From: Bacteroidota bacterium
GTDB lineage: Bacteria; Bacteroidota; Rhodothermia; JANXDC01
Direction of reading: 5' to 3'
NCBI GenBank assembly: GCA_025059945.1
Contig: JANXDC010000011.1
Span: 205,856-269,855, forward strand
Length of the DNA stretch: 64,000 nt
Part shown: positions 31,892-43,851 of the stretch, one piece after another
Numbering within the stretch: the stretch's first letter is position 1
How the letters are laid out: the number at the start of each line of letters is the position of its first letter
The notes under the pieces: model-generated
Databases searched by the model: none
What the model was told of the DNA's origin: nothing
The model's input: only the letters and a program-made list of their open reading frames with translations
Translations under genes and position numbers: made by a program

Positions 31892-31899
31892 GGGTGGGC

Positions 31900-32235
31900 A
31901 TGCCGTATCGGAAGCTCGTTTTCGTCTGCGTCAACCAGCGTCCGGAGGAGAGCCCTAAGCGGTCCTGCGGCCGAAACGGCGCGCAGGCGCTGCTTACGGC
32001 CCTGCAGGCGGCCTGTCGGGAACTAGGGCTTGCGGACGTCAAGGTGGTCATGAGCGGCTGCCTGGGGCCTTGCGAACAGGGCAACACGGCCGTAGTGTTC
32101 CCGGACAACGTCTGGTACGGACATCTCGAAGCGGCCGACGCCTACCGGATCGCGGCTGAACATCTGGCTCGAGGACGACCCTTGGAAGAACGTCGGATGC
32201 GCGGCGTCTTAGAGGACCCCGGCGCGTCCGGCTAG
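31900..32235 (+). CDS. thioredoxin-like [2Fe-2S] ferredoxin protein
   Basis: A 111-residue protein with the cysteine pattern of thioredoxin-fold [2Fe-2S] ferredoxins: Cys10 and Cys23 (FVCVNQ, RSCGRNGAQ), then Cys54 and Cys58 (SGCLGPCEQG), followed by NTAVVFPDNVWYG. Such proteins resemble the NuoE fold, and its position just upstream of a nuo operon that lacks nuoE is worth noting. It is monodomain and otherwise of unknown role. ATG 31900 has AAGGG upstream; GTG 31894 is an alternative. Confidence 0.85.
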   Translation: MPYRKLVFVCVNQRPEESPKRSCGRNGAQALLTALQAACRELGLADVKVVMSGCLGPCEQGNTAVVFPDNVWYGHLEAADAYRIAAEHLARGRPLEERRMRGVLEDPGASG

Positions 32236-32637: not shown

Positions 32638-33240
32638 ATGTCACCCCAGATCAGCGCCTTTGGCCAGGTGTTGCTGTTCCTGCTGACCGGGCTTCTGTTT
32701 GTGGGGCTGGTTTTCGGCCTATCACGCCTGTTGCGGCCCCACAGGCCCAATCCGGAAAAGGCCCTCCCGTACGAATGCGGGGAAGATCCTGTGGGTTCGG
32801 CGTGGGTGCAGTTCAACATCCGCTTCTACGTGGTGGCGCTGATCTTTATCGTCTTCGAAATCGAGGTGGCATTGCTCTTTCCATGGGCAGTCGTGCTACG
32901 GGATCTCGGGCCCCTCGCGTTAGGAGCGGGGCTTGTATTCTTGGCCATCCTGGTGCTGGGCATGGCCTATGAATGGCGCAAAGGCGACTTGACCTGGGTG
33001 AGGCCCGAGCCCGTTGTGCCTCGCCTGGAGTTGCCTCCGATCCCGTATGAGGCGCTCAACAGCCGCGATCGCCGGGGCTACAGGCCCAAGAGGCGCCTGG
33101 AGCCGATCGAGCCCGGGGCGGTCGCCTCTGCGAACGCCTCCGCGGAGCCGGCGGCTCCCGATGTCGCCTCCGAAGCCAAGCCACCCGGGCCAGGTGTGCG
33201 CAAGTTTCAATTCAAGTCCGTTCGGCCTCCGCAGGCCTAG
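32638..33240 (+). CDS. nuoA: NADH-quinone oxidoreductase subunit A
   Basis: Membrane subunit of complex I, 200 residues with three membrane helices (about residues 8-32, 62-84 and 90-110). Family motifs are [36 protein letters not shown] and [10 protein letters not shown]. The family is usually 115-145 residues. Here about 75 further residues after the third helix form a charged, Ala/Pro-rich tail of unknown role. It is the first gene of the operon, behind a strong promoter. Confidence 0.95.
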
Positions 33241-33314
33241 CGAGCAGCTCTCCTCAGCGCGCCTTACTTGCTCCCAAGAAGCGATCGGCAACGGCTCTAG
33301 AGGTGGACTCTGCT

Positions 33315-33812
33315 ATGGGGCTTTTGGATCAGCGCTTCGAACACGGCAATGTGGTCATCACCTCCGTGGAAAACCTTTTAAACTGGGCGCGCCTGTCCAG
33401 CCTTTGGCCCATGTCCTTCGGGTTGGCCTGCTGCGCTATCGAGATGATGTCCACCTTTGCTTCGCACTACGACCTGGACCGATTCGGCATTTTTCCCCGT
33501 CCTTCACCCCGGCAGGCCGATGTGATGATCGTAGCCGGCACGGTCACGTTCAAAATGGCCGATCGCATCCGCCGGCTCTACGAGCAGATGCCCGAGCCTA
33601 AGTACGTTATCTCCATGGGCTCTTGCTCCAACTGCGGCGGGCCCTACTGGGAGCACGGCTATCACGTGGTAAAGGGCGTGGACCGGATCATACCGGTTGA
33701 TGTCTATGTGCCGGGCTGTCCGCCCCGGCCGGAGGCCCTAATCGGGGGCTTTCTGAAGCTGCAGGAGAAAATCCGCCAAGAGCGGCTCTGCGAGCCGAGC
33801 CCGACAAGCTGA
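33315..33812 (+). CDS. nuoB: NADH-quinone oxidoreductase subunit B
   Basis: Peripheral-arm subunit that holds the N2 [4Fe-4S] cluster next to the quinone site, 165 residues. Cluster ligands are Cys39 and Cys40 ([10 protein letters not shown]), Cys104 ([13 protein letters not shown]) and Cys135 ([11 protein letters not shown]). I used ATG 33315 ([12 protein letters not shown]); a GTG four codons earlier is possible. A 74-base gap separates it from nuoA, and nuoC starts two bases after its stop. Confidence 0.97.
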
Positions 33813-33814
33813 AG

Positions 33815-34444
33815 ATGGCCAGCGTATACCAGATCCGAGATTGGCTTCTTGAGCGCTTCGGTCCGGAGGTTATCTTGGACTTGGAGCGAGAGCGATCGAT
33901 CCCGCCCGCCTTCGTGATTCCAGCCGAGCGGCTTCGGGAGGTGTGCCGATTCTTGCGCGACGATCCGCGCCTGTACTTTGATCAGCTCATGTGCTTAAGC
34001 GGGGTCGATTACGGTCCGGAGCGCGACATGGTGGCGGTCGTTTACCATCTGCACTCGATACCGCACGATCACCAGATCGCCCTCAAGGTTTTCATAAGCC
34101 GCTCCCAGAACCTGGAGCCCGTAACGAACAAGCTCGAATACACCCAGATCGGACCCGACGGGGAGCCAACGCCTAATGCCGAACCTCCGGAATCGGCTGT
34201 GGCGGACTCCCTGGAGGCCCGCACAAGCTACGAGACCGAATATCTGCCGGCTGTGGACACGGTCTCGGATATCTGGCGCACGGCCGAATGGCATGAGCGC
34301 GAGGCCTACGATCTTGTCGGAATCGCCTTTCGCGGGCATCCGGACCTGCGGCGCATCCTGACCTGCGACGACTGGCCCGGTCATCCCCTGCGCAAAGATT
34401 ACCGTTGGCCTGAGTATTACCACGGTATCCGCGTAGCCTACTGA
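33815..34444 (+). CDS. nuoC: NADH-quinone oxidoreductase subunit C
   Basis: 30 kDa-type subunit of the peripheral arm, 209 residues, separate from NuoD. The conserved core runs from [21 protein letters not shown] to [23 protein letters not shown]. The motif [16 protein letters not shown] closes it. About 35 extra residues (after [11 protein letters not shown], including [14 protein letters not shown]) interrupt the usual core just before the [12 protein letters not shown] segment. Its stop shares a base with the nuoD start (TGATG). Confidence 0.95.
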
Positions 34445-35658
34445 TGCAGCCTCAAGCTGGCCCCGAAGCGGTCCGTTGGGCCGCCTCCGATTCCAACCGC
34501 GTGCGTCTGCGGGATCTGCGGACCGAGGAGATGGTCCTCAACATGGGTCCGCAACATCCGAGCACGCACGGCGTGCTGCGGCTAGAGGTCGTGACCGATG
34601 GCGAGATCGTCGTCGACGTCATCCCGCACATAGGCTACCTGCACCGCTGCTTTGAAAAACACGCCGAATCCCTCACCTACCCACAGGTTATCCCCTACGT
34701 GGACCGCATGGACTATTTGGCGGCCATGAACAACGAGCTGGCCTGGGCCATCGCGGTGGAGCGCCTGCTCGGGATAGAGGAGGAGATCCATCCGCGCGTG
34801 CAGTACATCCGCGTGCTCATGGCCGAGCTCAACCGTATCTCTAGTCACCTAGTCTCGATCGGCACTTTCGGGCAGGACGCTGGCGCGGTCACCCCGTTTC
34901 TGTGGTGTTTCCGGGATCGGGAGCACATCCTGAACCTGTTTGAGTGGGCCTCCGGGGCGCGGTTGCTATACAACTACATCTGGATCGGCGGGCTTATGCA
35001 CGATCTGCCCTTGGGCTTTGAGGAGCGCTGCCGGGAGTTCGTCGAATACTTTCGGCCCAAGGTGCGGGAGCTAAACGAGCTTTTGACTTACAATAAAATC
35101 TTCATTGAACGCACGGCCAACGTAGGGGTGCTGCCCGTAGAGGTGGCGGTCAACTGGGGCTGTTCTGGGCCCATGCTGCGCGGCTCAGGATTGCGTTGGG
35201 ATCTGCGCCGGGATGACCCTTACGCGGTCTACCCGGAGCTGGATTTCGAGGTCTGCGTTGGTCGGGGTGAGATCGGCACCGTGGGGGACTCCTGGAACCG
35301 CTACAAGGTCCGGGCCGAGGAGATCGAGCAGTCGCTGCGCATCGTCGAGCAGTGTCTTGATCAGCTCCAGCGGGGGATCGGGCGCCGCACGGCGGACTTC
35401 GATCCGCAGAAGCTCTGCCCTCCGCGCGTGGCCCCGCCCAAGGACGCTGAGGTCTACGCCCGCTTCGAGAACCCCCGCGGAGAGCTGGGCTTCTACATCC
35501 TAAGCGACGGCACGGATAAGCCTTTCAGGGTCAAAGCCCGGGCGCCTAGCTTTTCGAATCTGAGCGTGCTGCCGGAAATCAGCCGAGGGGCGATGCTGGC
35601 CGATCTGATCGTGATCCTGGGCTCGATCGACATCGTGCTGGGGGAAGTGGATCGATAG
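34444..35658 (+). CDS. nuoD: NADH-quinone oxidoreductase subunit D
   Basis: 49 kDa-type subunit forming the quinone pocket with NuoB, 404 residues. Typical motifs are [53 protein letters not shown], and [20 protein letters not shown]. It ends [12 protein letters not shown], as is usual. The hydrogenase-derived cysteines are absent, as expected for complex I. It is tightly coupled to nuoC (TGATG) and followed by nuoH after nine bases. Confidence 0.98.
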
Positions 35659-35667
35659 AGGGGCCTC

Positions 35668-36780
35668 ATGGGCGCAGGACCGGAGTTTTTCGTCTCCCTT
35701 CTCGGCCCCGTACTGGGCATCATGCTGCTTGCGCTGCTTGTGGCCGGCTTCATCGCCCTCTACACGCTGGCCGCCGTGTATGCGGAACGCAAGGTCTCGG
35801 CCTTTATCCAAGACCGGGTCGGACCCTTGGAGACAGGACCTAGAGGGCTATTGCAGACCGTAGCGGATATTCTGAAGCTTCTGCTGAAGGAAGACATCGT
35901 ACCCAGAATGGCGGATAAGCCCCTCTGGGTAGCCGCCCCCTTTGTGGTTTTCGCCGCCGTGTTCGTGGGTTACGCCGTAATCCCCTTCGGCCCGGAGTTT
36001 GTCGGGGCGAACTTAAACGTTGGGGTGCTGTTTCTTACGGCTTTTACCGCCTTCGAGGTCGCGGGTCTGCTCATGGCCGGCTGGGGCTCAAACAACAAGT
36101 ACGCCCTCTACGGAGCCGTGCGCAGCGTGGCGCAGGTGATCAGCTACGAGATCCCGGCCGGGTTGGCTGTGCTCTCCGTTGTGCTGGTAGCGGGTACGCT
36201 CAACCTAAACGAGATCGTGCTACAGCAGGGCCCGGGCTCTCCGGTGCCGCGCCATCTGCTGGGGTTGCCCTTTTTGCCGGACGTCTCGGCCGTAGGGGGC
36301 TTCCTTACGTGGAACGTCCTGGCCTACCCGCATCTGGTGATCGCGTTTGTGATCTACTTCATCGCCTCGTTGGCCGAGGTCAACCGCGCCCCCTTTGACA
36401 TCCCCGAAGCGGAATCCGAGCTTGTAGCAGGCTATCACACGGAGTACGGCGGGATCAAATTCGCCTTTTTCTTTCTGGCCGAATACGGCGGTATGCTCCT
36501 TGTGGGCCTCATCGGAGCCGTTCTGTTTTTAGGCGGCTGGCAGAGCCCGCTGCCCAACGTGGGGGCGGTCGCGCTGGCAGACTGGACCACGGGGCCGTTT
36601 TGGGGCGCGTTTTGGCTTTTGGCGAAGGCGCTGGCAGTGGTGCTCGTGCACATGTGGGTGCGCTGGACGCTGCCTCGGCTTCGGGTGGATCAACTCATGT
36701 ATCTTTGCTGGAAGGTGTTGACGCCCTTTGCCGTGGCCATGGTGGTCGTATCGGCCCTTTGGGCGACGTGGATGGGATAG
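35668..36780 (+). CDS. nuoH: NADH-quinone oxidoreductase subunit H
   Basis: Membrane subunit at the interface with the peripheral arm and quinone tunnel, 370 residues with eight or nine helices. Conserved stretches are [40 protein letters not shown], and [20 protein letters not shown]. The last has the acidic residues thought to take part in proton coupling. It begins after a GAGGGGC ribosome site and is followed by nuoI with a three-base gap. The order D-H without E, F and G between is notable. Confidence 0.98.
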
Positions 36781-36783
36781 CTT

Positions 36784-37635
36784 ATGCCGACCCGTACGGG
36801 GTATTTTACGAACCTGCGCATCGGCGTCGAAACCGTCTGGGCGGGCCTGCGGCTGACGCTGGGCCATCTTCGACAGGCCCGCAGGCGACGTCGGCCGGTC
36901 TCGATCGCGGATCCGGATTACTTTCGGCAGCCGGACGGGCAGGTGACCGTGCGCTATCCGCACGAGGCCGTGCCCGTTCCGGATACGGGCCGGTATCGGC
37001 TGCACAACGACATCGACGACTGCATCGGATGTCTGAAGTGCGCCCGCATCTGCCCCGTAGACTGCATCACGATCGAAACGATCAAGGCCGTCGAGGACCT
37101 GGGCACGACCTCCAATGGGCAGAAAAAGCGCCTCTGGATCGCCCGGTTCGACATCGACATGGCCAAGTGCTGCTACTGCGGTCTATGCACCATGGTCTGT
37201 CCTACGGAGTGCCTGACCATGACCAAGGTGCACGACTTCAGCGAGTTTGACCGCGACAACATGGTCTATCACTTCGCCAACCTCACCCCGGAGGAGGTTG
37301 AGGAGAAGCGTCGCCTGGCCGAGGCGGCGGCCGTAAAGCCTGCCGCGCCGGCCCGAGCAGCCTCCGCTCAGCCCGCATCCGCTGCGGGCAAGTCCGCCCT
37401 CGCGCCCAGGGCCGTTTCCCGACCTGAGGCCCCCGGGGACCGGGATCCCGCTCCGAACGCCGGCTCCGCGGAGGCACCCCACCGAGCCAAACCCGCCTTC
37501 GCCCCTCGGCCTGTGCCCCGAGCGGGCGCCGATGCGGAGTCCCGGCCGGCCGAGCCCCCCTCGACGGAATCGGAGCAGCCGCAAGAGCGCAAGCCGGCCG
37601 CAAAGCCCTTCGTGTTCAAAAAGGGGGACTCCTGA
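36784..37635 (+). CDS. nuoI: NADH-quinone oxidoreductase subunit I with long C-terminal tail
   Basis: Ferredoxin-like subunit with two [4Fe-4S] clusters. Cluster one has Cys80, 83, 86 and 90 (DDCIGCLKCARICP) and cluster two has Cys129, 132, 135 and 139 (AKCCYCGLCTMVCP). The core ends at about residue 180. The remaining 100 residues are Ala/Pro/Arg-rich and low in complexity, ending in KPAAKPFVFKKGDS. The total is 283 residues against a usual 160-220. The tail is in frame with no sign of a frameshift and may be disordered. Its stop overlaps nuoJ (TGATG). Confidence 0.97.
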   Translation: MPTRTGYFTNLRIGVETVWAGLRLTLGHLRQARRRRRPVSIADPDYFRQPDGQVTVRYPHEAVPVPDTGRYRLHNDIDDCIGCLKCARICPVDCITIETIKAVEDLGTTSNGQKKRLWIARFDIDMAKCCYCGLCTMVCPTECLTMTKVHDFSEFDRDNMVYHFANLTPEEVEEKRRLAEAAAVKPAAPARAASAQPASAAGKSALAPRAVSRPEAPGDRDPAPNAGSAEAPHRAKPAFAPRPVPRAGADAESRPAEPPSTESEQPQERKPAAKPFVFKKGDS

Positions 37636-38195
37636 TGGACTACTACCGGATCGCCTTCTATGCGTTTGGAGCCGTAACGGTGCTCGCGGCCCTGGTCGCG
37701 GTTTGGAGCCGCAACCTGATCCATGCCGGAATGGGGCTTTTGCTGAGCCTTTTCGGGGTGGCCGGTCTATACGCCCTGGCCGGGGCCGATTTCCTGGCGG
37801 TCGTGCAGATTCTGGTCTACGTGGGCGGGATCGTGATCCTGCTCTTGTTCGGCATCATGCTCACGCAGCGTATCACGGGTCGCGCCCCCCGAACCGGGGT
37901 CACAAACCGCTTAGTGGGCGCGCTAGCCGCCCTGGCCGTTCTGGGGGTTTTGCTTGCGGCCCTTCTGAGGGCCGGCTTTGCCGAGCTGCCCTGGATCGCC
38001 CAAGCGGGCCAGATCAACGAGCAGACGTTGCCTCCAGCAGGCTCCACGGTGGAGCGGTTGGGTCGGCTGTTGGTGGGCGAGTATTTGCTTCTGTTTGAAG
38101 TGGCCGCTTTAGTGCTCACCATCGCCCTGATCGGCGCCGCTTACATGGCCCGGCGCTCTCGGGATGAGGGCGCGCGGCCCCGGCGCATGACGTAA
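37635..38195 (+). CDS. nuoJ: NADH-quinone oxidoreductase subunit J
   Basis: Membrane subunit of 186 residues with five predicted helices. Family stretches are NLIHAGMGLLLSLFGVAGLYALAGADFLAV and VQILVYVGGIVILLLFGIMLTQRI. The last helix (LLLFEVAALVLTIALIGAAYMAR) is also typical. It contributes the pi-bulge helix region next to the quinone-coupled channels. It is translationally coupled to nuoI and followed by nuoK after about 12 bases. Confidence 0.96.
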   Translation: MDYYRIAFYAFGAVTVLAALVAVWSRNLIHAGMGLLLSLFGVAGLYALAGADFLAVVQILVYVGGIVILLLFGIMLTQRITGRAPRTGVTNRLVGALAALAVLGVLLAALLRAGFAELPWIAQAGQINEQTLPPAGSTVERLGRLLVGEYLLLFEVAALVLTIALIGAAYMARRSRDEGARPRRMT

Positions 38196-38207
38196 AGGAG
38201 TTTGATC

Positions 38208-38525
38208 GTGACGTCCGCAGCGGCTTACCTAAACGGATATCTGCTCATCGCGGCCCTGCTTTTCTCCTTGGGCCTGTTTGCCGTGCTCACGCGCCGCAAC
38301 GCCATCGCCGTGCTCATAGGCGTTGAGCTCATGCTCAATGCGGCTAACCTGAACCTGGTCGCCTTTGCGCAGTTCGACCCCTACCGGCTTGGGGGGCAAG
38401 TGGCCGCCTTGCTTGTGATCGTGCTCGCTGTCTGCGAGGCGGCTCTGGCCCTGGCCATCGTGCTCAACCTTTACGATCGTTTGCAGACCGTCAACGTAGA
38501 CGAAGTCGAAAGCCTGCGACTCTAA
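38208..38525 (+). CDS. nuoK: NADH-quinone oxidoreductase subunit K
   Basis: Small antiporter-like membrane subunit, 105 residues with three helices. The two key membrane glutamates are Glu40 (GVELMLNAANLNLVAF) and Glu77 (AVCEAALALAI), at the positions of E. coli Glu36 and Glu72. I chose GTG 38208 because AAAGGAG lies seven bases upstream; an in-frame TTG at 38202 sits too close to that site. It is followed by nuoL after 11 bases. Confidence 0.96.
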   Translation: MTSAAAYLNGYLLIAALLFSLGLFAVLTRRNAIAVLIGVELMLNAANLNLVAFAQFDPYRLGGQVAALLVIVLAVCEAALALAIVLNLYDRLQTVNVDEVESLRL

Positions 38526-38536
38526 AAAGAGGGGTC

Positions 38537-40648
38537 ATGGACTACACGCCCTGGGTTAGCGCCGTGCTGCTTTTGCCTCTACTCGGAGGGGCGCTTGTGT
38601 GGGCCCTGGGCAAGCGCGCGTTGCCCAGGCAGGGCGATTGGCTGGCCACGGGCCTTGTGGGGGTGGCCTTGGTGCTTTCCGTTTACGTTCTCTACGGCCT
38701 GCTCACCCAAGTGGCTCCGCACAATCCGCGTTGGATCTGGATCGATCTGGGCTCTACGTCGGGTCGGGCGCCCCTGCTTTTGCCGTTCGGCTTTCAGATC
38801 GACATCCCCGCGGCCCTGATGCTCGTGCTCGTAACGGGGGTTAGCTTTCTGGTCCACCTGTTCTCTATCGGCTATATGGCCGGCGATCCCAAGTACGCGC
38901 GCTACTTCGCGTACCTGAGCTTTTTTACGTTTTCCATGCTGGGGATCGTGCTCTCCGACAACCTGCTCATGATCTACGTGTTCTGGGAGCTGGTGGGCCT
39001 GAGCTCGTATTTGCTCATCGGGTTTTGGTTTGAACGCGAGGCGCCCTCCCGAGCCGCCACGAAGGCCTTCATCGTAAACCGGATCGGTGATGCGGGCTTT
39101 TGGGCCGGGATCCTCATACTTTGGAGCCAATTTGAGACGCTGCATTTTGGCGAGCTCTCCCGTTTGCTGGCGGAGTCCCGGATCATCGAAGGGCGATGGC
39201 AGACGCTGGTGCCCTTAGAGGAGGGCTCTGGGGTCGTGCGGGAGCTTTCGGCGGGTTGGCTTACGGCGGCCGGGCTGCTGCTCTTCATGGGCGTGGTGGG
39301 CAAGTCGGCCCAGTTTCCGTTGCACGTCTGGCTTCCGGACGCCATGGAGGGCCCCACGCCCGTGTCGGCCCTCATTCATGCCGCTACCATGGTCGCAGCC
39401 GGCGTGTACCTGTTGTGGCGCATCTACCCGCTTCTGAGCCCGGAGGCGCTGCTGGTTATCGCCTTCACGGGGGCCTTCACGGCCTTTATGGCCGCCACGA
39501 TCGCCCTTACGCAGCGCGACATCAAGCGCGTGCTCGCCTATTCGACGATCTCCCAGCTCGGTTACATGGTCATGGGCGTAGGCGTGGGCTCTCCTGTGGC
39601 CGGGCTGTTTCATCTGATCACGCATGCCTTCTTCAAGGCGGGCCTGTTTCTAGGGGCCGGCTCCATTATAGACGCCCTGCATAAGCTGGAAAAACGCCTA
39701 AGCCATCGAGGCCTTGAGCTACACCTGGACCCCCAGGACATCGAGCTCATGGGGGGGCTTAGGCGGCCCATGCCCATGACGTTTGCCGCCTTCACCGTGT
39801 GCGCGGCCGCCCTGGCCGGTTTGCCTCTCTTTAGCGGCTTTCTTTCCAAGGACGCCATCTTGATCGCCGCCGCAGCCTTCCCTTACCTGGGCGCCGTGCA
39901 GTGGGACCTGCCCCCGCTGTGGCTTTTCGGGGTGCCCGTGTTGGGGTTTGCCACGGCCGCCCTTACGGCCTTCTACATGGGCCGGCTGTGGTTTAAGGTC
40001 TTTTGGGGTCCGTTTCGGCTGGCGCAACAATACCCGGCTGCGTCTTTGTCCGAGCTTCGGGAGTCGCCCTGGGTGATGCGGCTTCCGGTTCTGGGGCTGG
40101 CGCTTTTCAGCCTGTTTTTCTGGTTTTCTCCCCATCCCCTAGAGCCCAACCGGGGCTGGCTGTGGCGCGCCATAGCCGCCGAGGTCTCCGGCCGCGTAGG
40201 TCCCCAGGGGGCGTTCGTGCCCGATTACGTGCCCTCGGTGCTGCTTATTCGGCTCGGGTCGGCGGAGTTCCACCTTCAAGTTCTGGCCTGGTCCCTGGGG
40301 CTTGCCCTACTGGGGATCTTCGGGGCGCTTTGGGTTTACGGAATCAGGCGGCCGGATCTGGATCGTTGGCGACAGCGCCCCTGGCTTGGGCCCCTGTATC
40401 GGTTCTCTCGCGAAAGATGGTATCTGGATGCGCTTTACGAGGCCGGTCCGGTGCGGCTTTTTAGATGGCTTATGCGCTCGCAGGCGGCCTGGGATCGGCG
40501 TGTAATAGACGGGCTAGTAAACGGCACGGCCGCGCTCATCGCCGCCTTAGGCCGAGCCGGTCAACGGCTGCAGACCGGTCGGGTGCAGGCGTATCTGGCC
40601 ATGGCGGCGCTGGCGTTCGTGGCTTTGGTCCTGTGGTTGTGGCGGTAG
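38537..40648 (+). CDS. nuoL: NADH-quinone oxidoreductase subunit L
   Basis: Distal proton-pumping antiporter-like subunit, 703 residues with about 16 helices. The conserved glutamate is in YVFWELVGLSSYLLIGFWFE. The broken-helix Lys region is GKSAQFPLHVWLPDAMEGPT, followed by PVSALIHAATMVAAGVYLL. The C-terminal third contains the long lateral segment and a final membrane helix (AYLAMAALAFVALVLWLWR). It begins after GAGGGGTC and is followed by nuoM seven bases after its stop. Confidence 0.97.
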   Translation: MDYTPWVSAVLLLPLLGGALVWALGKRALPRQGDWLATGLVGVALVLSVYVLYGLLTQVAPHNPRWIWIDLGSTSGRAPLLLPFGFQIDIPAALMLVLVTGVSFLVHLFSIGYMAGDPKYARYFAYLSFFTFSMLGIVLSDNLLMIYVFWELVGLSSYLLIGFWFEREAPSRAATKAFIVNRIGDAGFWAGILILWSQFETLHFGELSRLLAESRIIEGRWQTLVPLEEGSGVVRELSAGWLTAAGLLLFMGVVGKSAQFPLHVWLPDAMEGPTPVSALIHAATMVAAGVYLLWRIYPLLSPEALLVIAFTGAFTAFMAATIALTQRDIKRVLAYSTISQLGYMVMGVGVGSPVAGLFHLITHAFFKAGLFLGAGSIIDALHKLEKRLSHRGLELHLDPQDIELMGGLRRPMPMTFAAFTVCAAALAGLPLFSGFLSKDAILIAAAAFPYLGAVQWDLPPLWLFGVPVLGFATAALTAFYMGRLWFKVFWGPFRLAQQYPAASLSELRESPWVMRLPVLGLALFSLFFWFSPHPLEPNRGWLWRAIAAEVSGRVGPQGAFVPDYVPSVLLIRLGSAEFHLQVLAWSLGLALLGIFGALWVYGIRRPDLDRWRQRPWLGPLYRFSRERWYLDALYEAGPVRLFRWLMRSQAAWDRRVIDGLVNGTAALIAALGRAGQRLQTGRVQAYLAMAALAFVALVLWLWR

Positions 40649-40655
40649 TCGACAT

Positions 40656-42326
40656 ATGTTCCCTTGGCTTTCGCTGATTCTGCTTGTGCCCGGGCTGGCC
40701 GCGCTGGGCGTGCTGCTAGTGCCGGCTCAGCGGGTAAACGCGATCCGGGGCCTGGCGCTGGGCGCGATGCTGCTGGAGCTGGCGCTTGTTTTGGGGCTGC
40801 TTGTGGCCTATGATCCGAGTCGGGCCGGGGTAAACGAGCCGAACGCGTTTCAGTTCGTTGAGCGTTTGACCCTGCTGGAGCTGGCCTTGGGGCCCTGGGG
40901 TCGGCTGCGGGTGGATTACTACCTCGGCCTTGACGGGCTCAGCCTGACCCTGGTCGTGCTGACGGCCCTGATCAGCGCCATCGGCGTGCTCTCATCCTGG
41001 ACGATCGAACGCGGCGTAAAGGGCTACTTTGCCCTTTACCTGCTGCTTGTGGCGGCCATGATGGGCGTGTTCGTGGCGCTGGATCTGTTTCTGTTTTACG
41101 TGTTCTGGGAGCTCATGCTCATCCCCATGTACTTTCTTATCGGCCTATGGGGGGGAGAGCGCCGCGCTTATGCGGCGGTCAAGTTCTTTCTGTACACGCT
41201 TGCCGGCTCCATTTTCCTTCTGCTTGTGCTCATCGGACTCTACTTCAGCAGCGCGCTCAACCCAGATGCCCCGCCGGCGCTGCAGGTGCGCACCCTGGAT
41301 TTGCTCCGACTCATGCGGCCGGAGGCTTACGCGCCGGATGCGCCCTTCAATCCCGAAGCCCCAGGTCTAATTTTGGGGTGGAATGCGCGCCTGCTGGCTT
41401 TTCTAGTGCTCTTTGTGGGCTTTGCCATCAAGCTTCCAGCCGTTCCCCTGCATACGTGGCTGCCGGACGCCCACGTGGAGGCCCCCACACCTATATCCGT
41501 TATTCTGGCCGGGGTTCTGCTCAAAATGGGCGGCTACGGGATTCTGCGCCTGGGCTATGGGCTTTTCCCCGAGGGCGGCATCGCCTTTGGGACCGGGATC
41601 GCGGCTCTGGGCATGCTTGGGGTCATCTATGGGGCGCTTGTGGCGGCCGCCCAGGAGGATCTGAAAAAGCTCATCGCCTACTCCTCTGTAAGCCACATGG
41701 GGTATGTGCTGCTGGGCATCGCCTCGCTTACCCAAGAGGGGGTGGCGGGGGCTGTTTTTCAGATGTTCACCCATGGCCTTGTCGCGGCTATGCTCTTCTT
41801 GCTCGTCGGGGTGCTCTACGACCGGGTGCACGATCGCATGATCGGGCACTTTCGGGGGCTATCGCAGCTTATGCCCCTCTACGGAGGGGTGGCCTTGTTT
41901 GCGTTTTTGGCCTCGATGGGGCTTCCGGGCCTGGCGGGTTTCGTCTCCGAGGCGCTCGTATTTTTGGGCGCCTTTAGCGCCGAATCCATCCACGCCGGGC
42001 GCGCCTTCTCGCCCGTGCCGCGTTGGATGGCGCTCGTTTCGGCAGCCGGTATCGTTCTGGCCGCGGTCTATTATCTGTGGGCCGTGGTGCAGCGCATGTT
42101 CTACGGACCTTTGAGGCTACGCGAAGAGGCCTGGCGTGCGTCCTTGGTGGATCTCAACGGGCGCGAGCGGGCCATGTTCTTCCCGCTCATGGCCCTTGTG
42201 CTCTTGCTGGGCCTGTACCCGCAGGCGTACCTGGGGCTTATTCGGGCCTCAACAGGCCGCTTTCTAGAGTGGGTGCTGAACTCCGGTACGGCCTGGCTGC
42301 AGCGGGGGCTTGCGCTCGGCAACTAG
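40656..42326 (+). CDS. nuoM: NADH-quinone oxidoreductase subunit M
   Basis: Antiporter-like proton-pumping subunit, 556 residues with about 14 helices. Key motifs are YVFWELMLIPMYFLIGLWGG (conserved Glu), IKLPAVPLHTWLPDAHVEAP and TPISVILAGVLLKMGGYG. The segment DLKKLIAYSSVSHMGYVLLG is also present. It lies between nuoL and nuoN in the standard order. Confidence 0.97.
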   Translation: MFPWLSLILLVPGLAALGVLLVPAQRVNAIRGLALGAMLLELALVLGLLVAYDPSRAGVNEPNAFQFVERLTLLELALGPWGRLRVDYYLGLDGLSLTLVVLTALISAIGVLSSWTIERGVKGYFALYLLLVAAMMGVFVALDLFLFYVFWELMLIPMYFLIGLWGGERRAYAAVKFFLYTLAGSIFLLLVLIGLYFSSALNPDAPPALQVRTLDLLRLMRPEAYAPDAPFNPEAPGLILGWNARLLAFLVLFVGFAIKLPAVPLHTWLPDAHVEAPTPISVILAGVLLKMGGYGILRLGYGLFPEGGIAFGTGIAALGMLGVIYGALVAAAQEDLKKLIAYSSVSHMGYVLLGIASLTQEGVAGAVFQMFTHGLVAAMLFLLVGVLYDRVHDRMIGHFRGLSQLMPLYGGVALFAFLASMGLPGLAGFVSEALVFLGAFSAESIHAGRAFSPVPRWMALVSAAGIVLAAVYYLWAVVQRMFYGPLRLREEAWRASLVDLNGRERAMFFPLMALVLLLGLYPQAYLGLIRASTGRFLEWVLNSGTAWLQRGLALGN

Positions 42327-42339
42327 CGGTGAAGCGACT

Positions 42340-43851
42340 ATGGACGCGCACACCTGGCAGATGATAGGGGAAAGCCTCAACCGGTTCTGGCCTGAGGCGA
42401 CGCTGCTGCTGACGTTTATCCTGCTTATTTTGGCCGATCTTATTCTGGGCCGGAATCGAAGTCCTGTCCTGCCCGTGATCGCCCTCTTGGGGTTGTTGCT
42501 ATCCGGCGTACTGGTGGGCCTTTCCGATCTAGGGGGCGCATCGGCCGGGGTATATCTTTTCTACGGGCTGCTCGTTGCCGACGGATACGCGGGCCTTTTT
42601 AAGTTGTTGTTCGCCCTGGCCGGCGCGCTAGCTGTGATCGCTTCGATGGAATCGCTTCCGCTGCGTCTGCATCGGCGCAGCATGGGGGAGTATTACGCCA
42701 TCCTCGTGGGGCTTATCTTCGGTCTCTATCTTATGGCCAGTGCGGCGCATCTTGTGGCGCTGTACCTGGCCATTGAACTTGTCTCGCTCTGTTCGTACGT
42801 GCTGGTCGGTTACCTCAAAGACGATCCCAAGGCGAGCGAGGCGGGGCTCAAATACATCCTATACGGGGCCGTTTCGTCGGCCTTCCTGCTCTACGGGTTC
42901 TCCTTGCTATACGGGCTTACCGGGACCTTGGAGCTGTATGCGCTCTCTGAGCGGCTGACCCAAGTCGACTCCGGTCCCGTTTTGACGTTAGCCGTGTTGC
43001 TGGCCCTTGTGGGCTTCGGATACAAAATCGCGGCCGTGCCTTTTCACTTCTGGGCTCCAGACGCCTACGAAGGGGCGCCGGTGCCCGTGGCGGCCCTGCT
43101 TGCGGTGGGGCCTAAGGCGGCCGGTTTTGCGGCCCTGGTGCGTTTTCTCATCATCGGCCTGGGGGCCGAGGAGCTCTTCGCCCGCCTGGAGGGATCCGCG
43201 CTGCTGGTTGTGATCGCGCTTCTGACGATGACCCTGGGCAACTTGGCCGCGATTGGGCAGCACAACCTTAAGCGCATGTTGGCCTACTCCAGCATCGCGC
43301 ACGCCGGATACGCGCTCATGGGCGCAGCCGCCCTGGGGGAACTGGGCCTGCAAGCGCTGGTCTTTTATTTGGTTGTGTACGGTCTTCTTACCTTCGGGGC
43401 CTTCTGGGTGGTGATGGCCGTAGCCAACGCCACGGGTTCGGAGGATGTGCGCGCCTGGTCCGGCTTGGGCTGGGCGATGCCCCTTTTGGGGGCCGTGATG
43501 ACGGTCTTCATGGTGGGACTTACGGGCTTGCCCCCAACGGCCGGCTTTGCGGGCAAGCTGTTGCTGTTCTCCGCCGTCTGGGTCGCGTACGAAACCTCCG
43601 GTGATCCCGGCATGCTTGTCCTGCTTGTAGCGGGCCTTCTGAACAGCGTCATTTCGCTGTACTACTATCTGAAGGCCCCATACTACATGTTCTTCAGAAG
43701 CGCTGAGCTTTCTCAGCCCCTGCCGGCTATCTCCTGGGTGAGCCGGGCTGTGCTGCTGTCTCTGGCTGTGCCCTCGGCTGTGCTGGCGGCCACTCCGCTT
43801 TTCCCGTGGCTAGCCGAACAGGTTCTGCGAAACGTAAGCGCGGCCTTCTAG
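42340..43851 (+). CDS. nuoN: NADH-quinone oxidoreductase subunit N
   Basis: Antiporter-like subunit nearest the nuoK/nuoJ module, 503 residues with about 14 helices. Diagnostic regions are YLAIELVSLCSYVLVGYLKD, GYKIAAVPFHFWAPDAYEGA, and NLKRMLAYSSIAHAGYALMG. The ATG at 42340 lies 13 bases after nuoM; an upstream in-frame start overlapping nuoM is less likely. The next gene, hisD, begins only two bases after its stop, so the operon continues. Confidence 0.97.
   Translation: MDAHTWQMIGESLNRFWPEATLLLTFILLILADLILGRNRSPVLPVIALLGLLLSGVLVGLSDLGGASAGVYLFYGLLVADGYAGLFKLLFALAGALAVIASMESLPLRLHRRSMGEYYAILVGLIFGLYLMASAAHLVALYLAIELVSLCSYVLVGYLKDDPKASEAGLKYILYGAVSSAFLLYGFSLLYGLTGTLELYALSERLTQVDSGPVLTLAVLLALVGFGYKIAAVPFHFWAPDAYEGAPVPVAALLAVGPKAAGFAALVRFLIIGLGAEELFARLEGSALLVVIALLTMTLGNLAAIGQHNLKRMLAYSSIAHAGYALMGAAALGELGLQALVFYLVVYGLLTFGAFWVVMAVANATGSEDVRAWSGLGWAMPLLGAVMTVFMVGLTGLPPTAGFAGKLLLFSAVWVAYETSGDPGMLVLLVAGLLNSVISLYYYLKAPYYMFFRSAELSQPLPAISWVSRAVLLSLAVPSAVLAATPLFPWLAEQVLRNVSAAF

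Follow-up and report, generated by a model that had tools for sequence, protein, structure and literature searches.

What might a complex I that has no NADH module gain from a NuoI subunit that continues for a further 103 residues past its iron-sulfur cluster motifs? The window, by which we mean the whole 64,000-nucleotide stretch analyzed here, contains a contiguous complex I operon (nuoA, -B, -C, -D, -H, -I, -J, -K, -L, -M, and -N; positions 32638 to 43851, on the forward strand like every window feature given below). With these genes together and nuoE, nuoF, and nuoG absent from the open reading frames listed between those positions, the operon belongs to the 11-subunit kind, and a tblastn map of G001, the sole genome of the same genus among 59 others, gave the same gene order as that of the window. 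The window genome (G000; 2.14 Mb) also encodes a second, 14-subunit complex I set, and nuoF occurs only once in this genome, on another contig beside the second nuoA-to-nuoH genes. The 14-subunit set is scattered: contig 10 carries nuoA to nuoH (nuoE, nuoF, and nuoG among them), contig 3 carries nuoI, and contig 14 carries a second nuoJ. Neither its NuoI (218 residues) nor its NuoA (147 residues) has a tail of the kind described below.

Comparison with solved structures separated the two NuoI proteins. The window protein matched chloroplast NdhI best (76 bits, versus 49.4 for E. coli NuoI), whereas for the second NuoI the E. coli and mitochondrial proteins gave 111 to 116 bits and NdhI gave 59.8. 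By these scores the window NuoI has an NdhI-type affinity rather than that of an NADH-linked NuoI, although general NuoI models of NCBIfam still score it higher than the ndhI model does. A hairpin between its two 4Fe-4S motifs (NGQKKRL, 37114 to 37134) contains a KKRL that aligns with the KKRL of chloroplast NdhI. We also observed a gene for a thioredoxin-like 2Fe-2S ferredoxin (31894 to 32235; 64.6 bits against NF041613, under that model's cutoff of 195) directly upstream of a DUF3276 gene and nuoA, and a counterpart in G001 (L063:1018-1350) that occupies the equivalent position. This ferredoxin is a possible candidate for an electron carrier or donor of the window complex.

The window nuoI is one open reading frame of 283 codons (36784 to 37635) that encodes an N-terminal region, two 4Fe-4S motifs beginning at residues 80 and 129, and a C-terminal tail (residues 181 to 283; 37324 to 37632). 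Confirming the initial annotation, which had described an in-frame, Ala/Pro-rich tail of about 100 residues with mixed basic and acidic sequence, the tail is 103 residues long with a net charge of +5 and contains 29 Ala, 19 Pro, 16 Lys or Arg, and 11 Asp or Glu residues. Since codon 181 starts at 37324, the interval annotated from 37324 to 37635 is the tail plus the stop codon. The closing motif had been given as KPFVFKKGD; the motif is there, but the true end is KPFVFKKGDS, with a last serine that had been left out. AlphaFold gave a poor model of NuoI from 24 sequences (mean pLDDT, 55.7; pTM, 0.23), with pLDDT values of mostly 41 to 56 in the tail, and we draw no structural conclusion from it.

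The NuoA of the 11-subunit complex (200 residues; 32638 to 33240) also has a C-terminal extension, which had been said to end in a similar motif. An 11-residue F-x-F-K motif (FQFKS; 33193 to 33225), identical in G001, does lie near the NuoA end, but because PPQA continues after it, the motif is near the end rather than at it. From this likeness came the proposal of a docking element common to the ends of both tails, which would serve a single partner on the cytoplasmic side. In G001, a single genome that offers few sites, both motifs stand at unchanged places while the linkers have diverged. NuoI from G000 and G001 shares 96% identity in the core and 48%, with gaps, in the linker, and PFVFK is kept within last 13 residues that are 54% identical; in NuoA, 11 of the 12 residues around FQFK are kept beside a linker that is 26% identical. 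The motif thus persisted in the one close relative, as the initial annotation had expected. Furthermore, when each of the 59 codon-level F-x-F-K matches on both strands of G000 was read, only those of NuoA and NuoI lay no more than 12 residues from the end of a frame with at least 150 codons, the remaining near-terminal matches being in shorter or dubious frames. These results come from two genomes of one genus, and among 17 NuoA proteins read from Cytophagales, all of the 11-subunit kind, none had the F-x-F-K end, which makes the sharing between NuoA and NuoI a local observation. The two motifs also have little in common beyond F-x-F-K. We therefore regard a single shared docking motif as an improbable explanation: the commonality holds for the two genomes and not beyond them, and docking by such an element would be a further step. 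As a separate observation, the Cytophagales NuoA proteins of this kind (L202-L228) have a conserved end element of their own after the last helix, resembling FKSPVPxxLYxxINxKY, to which a C-terminal stretch of 17 residues in the window NuoA may correspond.

Across Cytophagales, the NuoI tails told more. We analyzed 78 tails, the window's and 77 from the best 80 of 543 confirmed NuoI loci in genome contigs, which were mostly from Cytophagales and biased to high scores; three loci were left out for masked bases or an open end. In this sample, the tail of 11-subunit NuoI repeats the unit [KR]-P-x-F-[KR]-P-x-x-K-P-K up to 14 times, and tails reach 435 residues. The core pattern [KR]P.F.P occurred 352 times in the 78 tails, against 3.2 expected from shuffles, with at least one copy in 68 of them and a range of 0 to 14. 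The looser pattern [KR].F.[PFK] was under-represented in the same tails (28 versus 73.4), so that the signal sits in the stricter forms. Unit sequence in the best 80 loci varied by genus, from KPAFRPTMKPK in Dyadobacter and Spirosoma to KPVFVPKKP in Runella and RPAFKPGFKK and KSFKPVFKK in Siphonobacter. Around the 473 Phe residues of these high-scoring tails, Pro was found at +2 in 434 and at -2 in 387, with 84.7 expected at each position. The units are evenly spaced, with 404 Phe-to-Phe distances in this sample having a median of 34 residues (quartiles, 31, 34, and 40), and units carry a charge of +3.4 per 11 residues, as opposed to -1.2 for the linkers.

Set beside these arrays, the window tail resembles a short and degenerate version with three units 33 and 37 residues apart. 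Unit 1 (37390 to 37422) is KSALAPRAVSR, a degenerate copy with Leu for Phe, at whose place G001 has KPAFAPRAVPR; unit 2 (37489 to 37521), KPAFAPRPVPR, fits [KR]P.F.P; and unit 3 (37603 to 37623) is the terminal KPFVFKK, the F-x-F-K motif noted at first, which is atypical. With one strict unit here and two in G001, the window's own evidence for this assignment is weak. The motif is accordingly best read as one unit of an array and not as the specifically terminal element that it had been taken to be. The idea of a conserved docking motif joined by a freely varying linker was right in spirit for NuoI, whose tails keep a short basic-aromatic motif throughout the Cytophagales sampled, and the Cytophagales arrays support it more than the window does; it failed for the 17 Cytophagales NuoA proteins.

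The array is not a universal feature of the enzyme. In an evener draw from the order, 11-subunit-type NuoI (E ≤ 1e-30) was found in 99 of 148 genomes, with frames of at least 300 codons in 53 of the 99, and the strict unit was present in 21 of the 30 best-scoring tails read from those 99; the first sample already included some of these 30. Among the nine tails without the strict unit, several finish in variants bearing Met, Ile, or Val in place of Phe, and basic residues were kept where Phe was so replaced (tails L294, L302, L304, and L305). In a draw from the whole phylum, this type of NuoI was found in 134 of 296 genomes, most frames being about 190 to 250 codons and hence short-tailed; tails were 26 to 29 residues in six Pontibacter and about 20 to 45 in the f23 genomes of the phylum sample. 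The existence of related complexes with short tails indicates that the array is an addition and not a requirement. On a tree of the NuoI core (65 rows), the array label needed four changes and the window genus fell outside the Cytophagales clade with weak support, so a single origin of the array is not shown by this tree.

Other tails in the phylum differ in kind. NuoI from Bacteroidota families f36, f20, and f50 (L248, L249, L251, L252, L254-L257, and L269) has one to three copies of K[LM][SP]PMMAAKLAAKK or similar repeats, which look like an amphipathic helix and mark a further lineage of 11-subunit complex I. In one such NuoI frame (L257, from G305), which runs to 483 codons, the repeats are followed close to the end by a hydrophobic stretch that might be a membrane segment or else result from a frame error.

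Arrays of this composition could be products of tandem duplication or slippage that spread a partnerless Pro/Ala/Lys tail, at most a spacer. Five matches in Dyadobacter jejuensis (G064, L171) are identical at the DNA level and hence recent copies, and the range of 0 to 14 copies in the 78 tails, together with the short-tailed relatives, would suit such an origin. A flat profile of constraint would have favored expansion of this kind, and none was found. We compared the copies within each tail, anchoring them on Phe alone and excluding that Phe, for the 62 tails with three or more Phe residues; these tails are not independent because of species relatedness. The pN/pS ratio was 0.38 at offsets -3 to +7, versus 0.79 in linkers. 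While pS stayed at about 0.7 inside and outside the units of these 62 tails, pN fell from 0.54 in linkers to 0.26 between -3 and +7, with sharp edges at -4/-3 and +7/+8. Nonsynonymous change is thus halved only inside the units and the linkers drift freely, and we consider expansion of a partnerless tail very unlikely. A related comparison anchored on [KR]P.F.P (0.24 versus 0.78, in 56 of 56 arrays) was set aside because this anchor fixes four residues and so biases the ratio. The dip in the Phe-anchored comparison is the strongest sign that the unit is recognized by something.

The array was also restricted to 11-subunit NuoI. The codon pattern F[KR]P[ST]MKP had 23 matches in five genomes, clustered once per genome at the NuoI tail, and the reversed control had none in the same five genomes. 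When a Telluribacter tail was used in a protein search of seven genomes, NuoI alone was retrieved in five and nothing in two, and no other protein with the array was detected in either set of genomes. Searches of the array against solved structures gave no real match (best E, 0.59). Concerning the genes around these arrays, the genes of the 11-subunit complex are scattered in many Cytophagales (L113-L189), with nuoI often next to nuoJ and nuoK, and nuoH, -A, -B, -C, and -D elsewhere. This scattering explains why NuoA was seen at only 1 of the 80 best of 543 NuoI loci; by Pfam family, 20 genomes had one to three NuoA proteins each. NuoF was found in 18 of 23 genomes tested. Of the five in which it was not found, the three that were included in the NuoA search have one NuoA each, and the NuoEFG-less enzyme therefore seems to be their sole complex I.

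Considering these results together, we tentatively favor, at somewhat short of an even chance, a model in which the NuoI tail is disordered and offers multiple docking sites at the face where electrons enter, its partner being an electron donor or donor module. A single short linear motif would recur along this intrinsically disordered tail, which is borne by the subunit whose iron-sulfur clusters are the outermost in an enzyme lacking the NADH module. Each basic Pro-Phe unit would bind a soluble partner weakly, and units held about 34 residues apart by acidic Pro/Ala/Glu linkers would enrich that partner locally at the exposed entry face, the site that NuoEFG occupies in ordinary complex I. 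The N-module surface is vacant in this enzyme, and evenly spaced units with acidic spacers resemble a multivalent landing pad; the most likely partner would be the donor or a donor module. The same sequence evidence would fit an array that docked something else, such as an assembly factor, another respiratory complex nearby, or a scaffold in the cytosol that holds the enzyme in place, and multivalency suits clustering as well as catalysis. That the array sits on the entry-cluster subunit of an enzyme without an input module, and that the 14-subunit NuoI of the window genome has none, argues against a non-donor partner, which we consider unlikely.

Alternatively, the units might be membrane-binding peptides, with Lys and Arg lying on acidic lipid headgroups and Phe and Met inserting, so that the peripheral arm would be tethered or crowded at the membrane. 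The MARCKS effector domain provides a parallel for this mode of binding. The strong positive charge of the units in the 78 tails, their one Phe and frequent Met, and the retention of basic residues in lineages that swap Phe for Met, Ile, or Val would all be compatible with membrane binding, and the window FVFKK and NuoA FQFKS may resemble such peptides. The prolines at -2 and +2 and the 11-residue footprint, however, exceed what charge plus hydrophobicity would need, and the E. coli NuoI end is located on the N-module side, as described in PMC8357420. Membrane binding thus appears an unlikely function of the units.

If the docking model holds, which donor would be involved? The portions of PMC11238625 and PMC7002350 dealing with the donor of 11-subunit complex I treat it as an open question, and the former cites the idea of Moparthi and Hagerhall (2011) of the 11-subunit enzyme as a platform on which several donors dock. 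We rejected ferredoxin from a 2-oxoacid oxidoreductase as a universal donor: POR_N, a mark of 2-oxoacid:ferredoxin oxidoreductases, was present in only 10 of the 28 genomes searched, and most genomes with the array lacked it, so that ferredoxin supplied by that route is not a universal partner. No constant donor gene was seen beside the 11-subunit nuo genes in the five Cytophagales regions listed. The conserved motif repeated along the entry subunit's tail offers a direct handle on the donor question, with the tail as bait. In a bolder version of the docking model, which is possible but doubtful, the disordered array would have replaced the NADH module to recruit a loosely held soluble donor, with unit number tuned between species, and the repeats of RsxC, together with the different KLSPMMAAKLAAKK repeats found in other families of Bacteroidota, would be independent versions of the same solution.

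The 11-subunit complex I family is itself known, and the array is a variant that we did not find described in the literature searched for a NuoI C-terminal extension or proline-rich repeat. Bacteroides fragilis NUO and the Desulfitobacterium hafniense enzyme share the subunit set of the window complex and likewise have no NADH module, according to the parts of PMC7002350 and PMC11238625 that concern them; those parts mention no NuoI repeats, and most relatives in our phylum sample are short-tailed. For B. fragilis membranes, PMC7002350 shows that the 11-subunit enzyme there does not oxidize NADH and uses another donor. The photosynthetic NDH-1 complexes of cyanobacteria and chloroplasts also lack NuoEFG and are driven by ferredoxin, which in the cyanobacterial complex docks on a basic hairpin of NdhI, as set out in the relevant part of PMC6992706. 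The KKRL hairpin is common to NdhI and the window NuoI, but photosynthetic NDH-1 has extra subunits, and the NdhI chains matched here, at 163 to 196 residues, are too short for such an array.

E. coli NuoI provides a precedent for the position of the tail. Its C-terminal residues 139 to 180, an addition on the N-module side like the window tail, contact NuoG, NuoB, NuoF, NuoD, and NuoE and help to hold the NADH module, as described in the pertinent passages of PMC8357420. That extension is ordered and 42 residues long, with no repeat mentioned in those passages, and the window enzyme lacks the partners NuoE, NuoF, and NuoG.

The nearest design to the NuoI arrays is the tail of E. coli RsxC (RnfC), for whose function we found no paper among the titles of the literature searched. 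RsxC is unrelated to NuoI, its unit is different (RKAAVEAAIARAKARK), and it contains no match to [KR]P.F.P; conversely, the window NuoI tail has no RsxC-type repeats resembling AAVEAAIARAKARK, so the likeness is architectural only. Like the NuoI arrays, the RsxC tail belongs to a subunit of a redox complex in the membrane and alternates basic tandem repeats with acidic linkers. Its six repeats, each started by DPRK (rsxC, L276:1420-3642), lie exactly 32 residues apart, compared with about 34 for the NuoI units.
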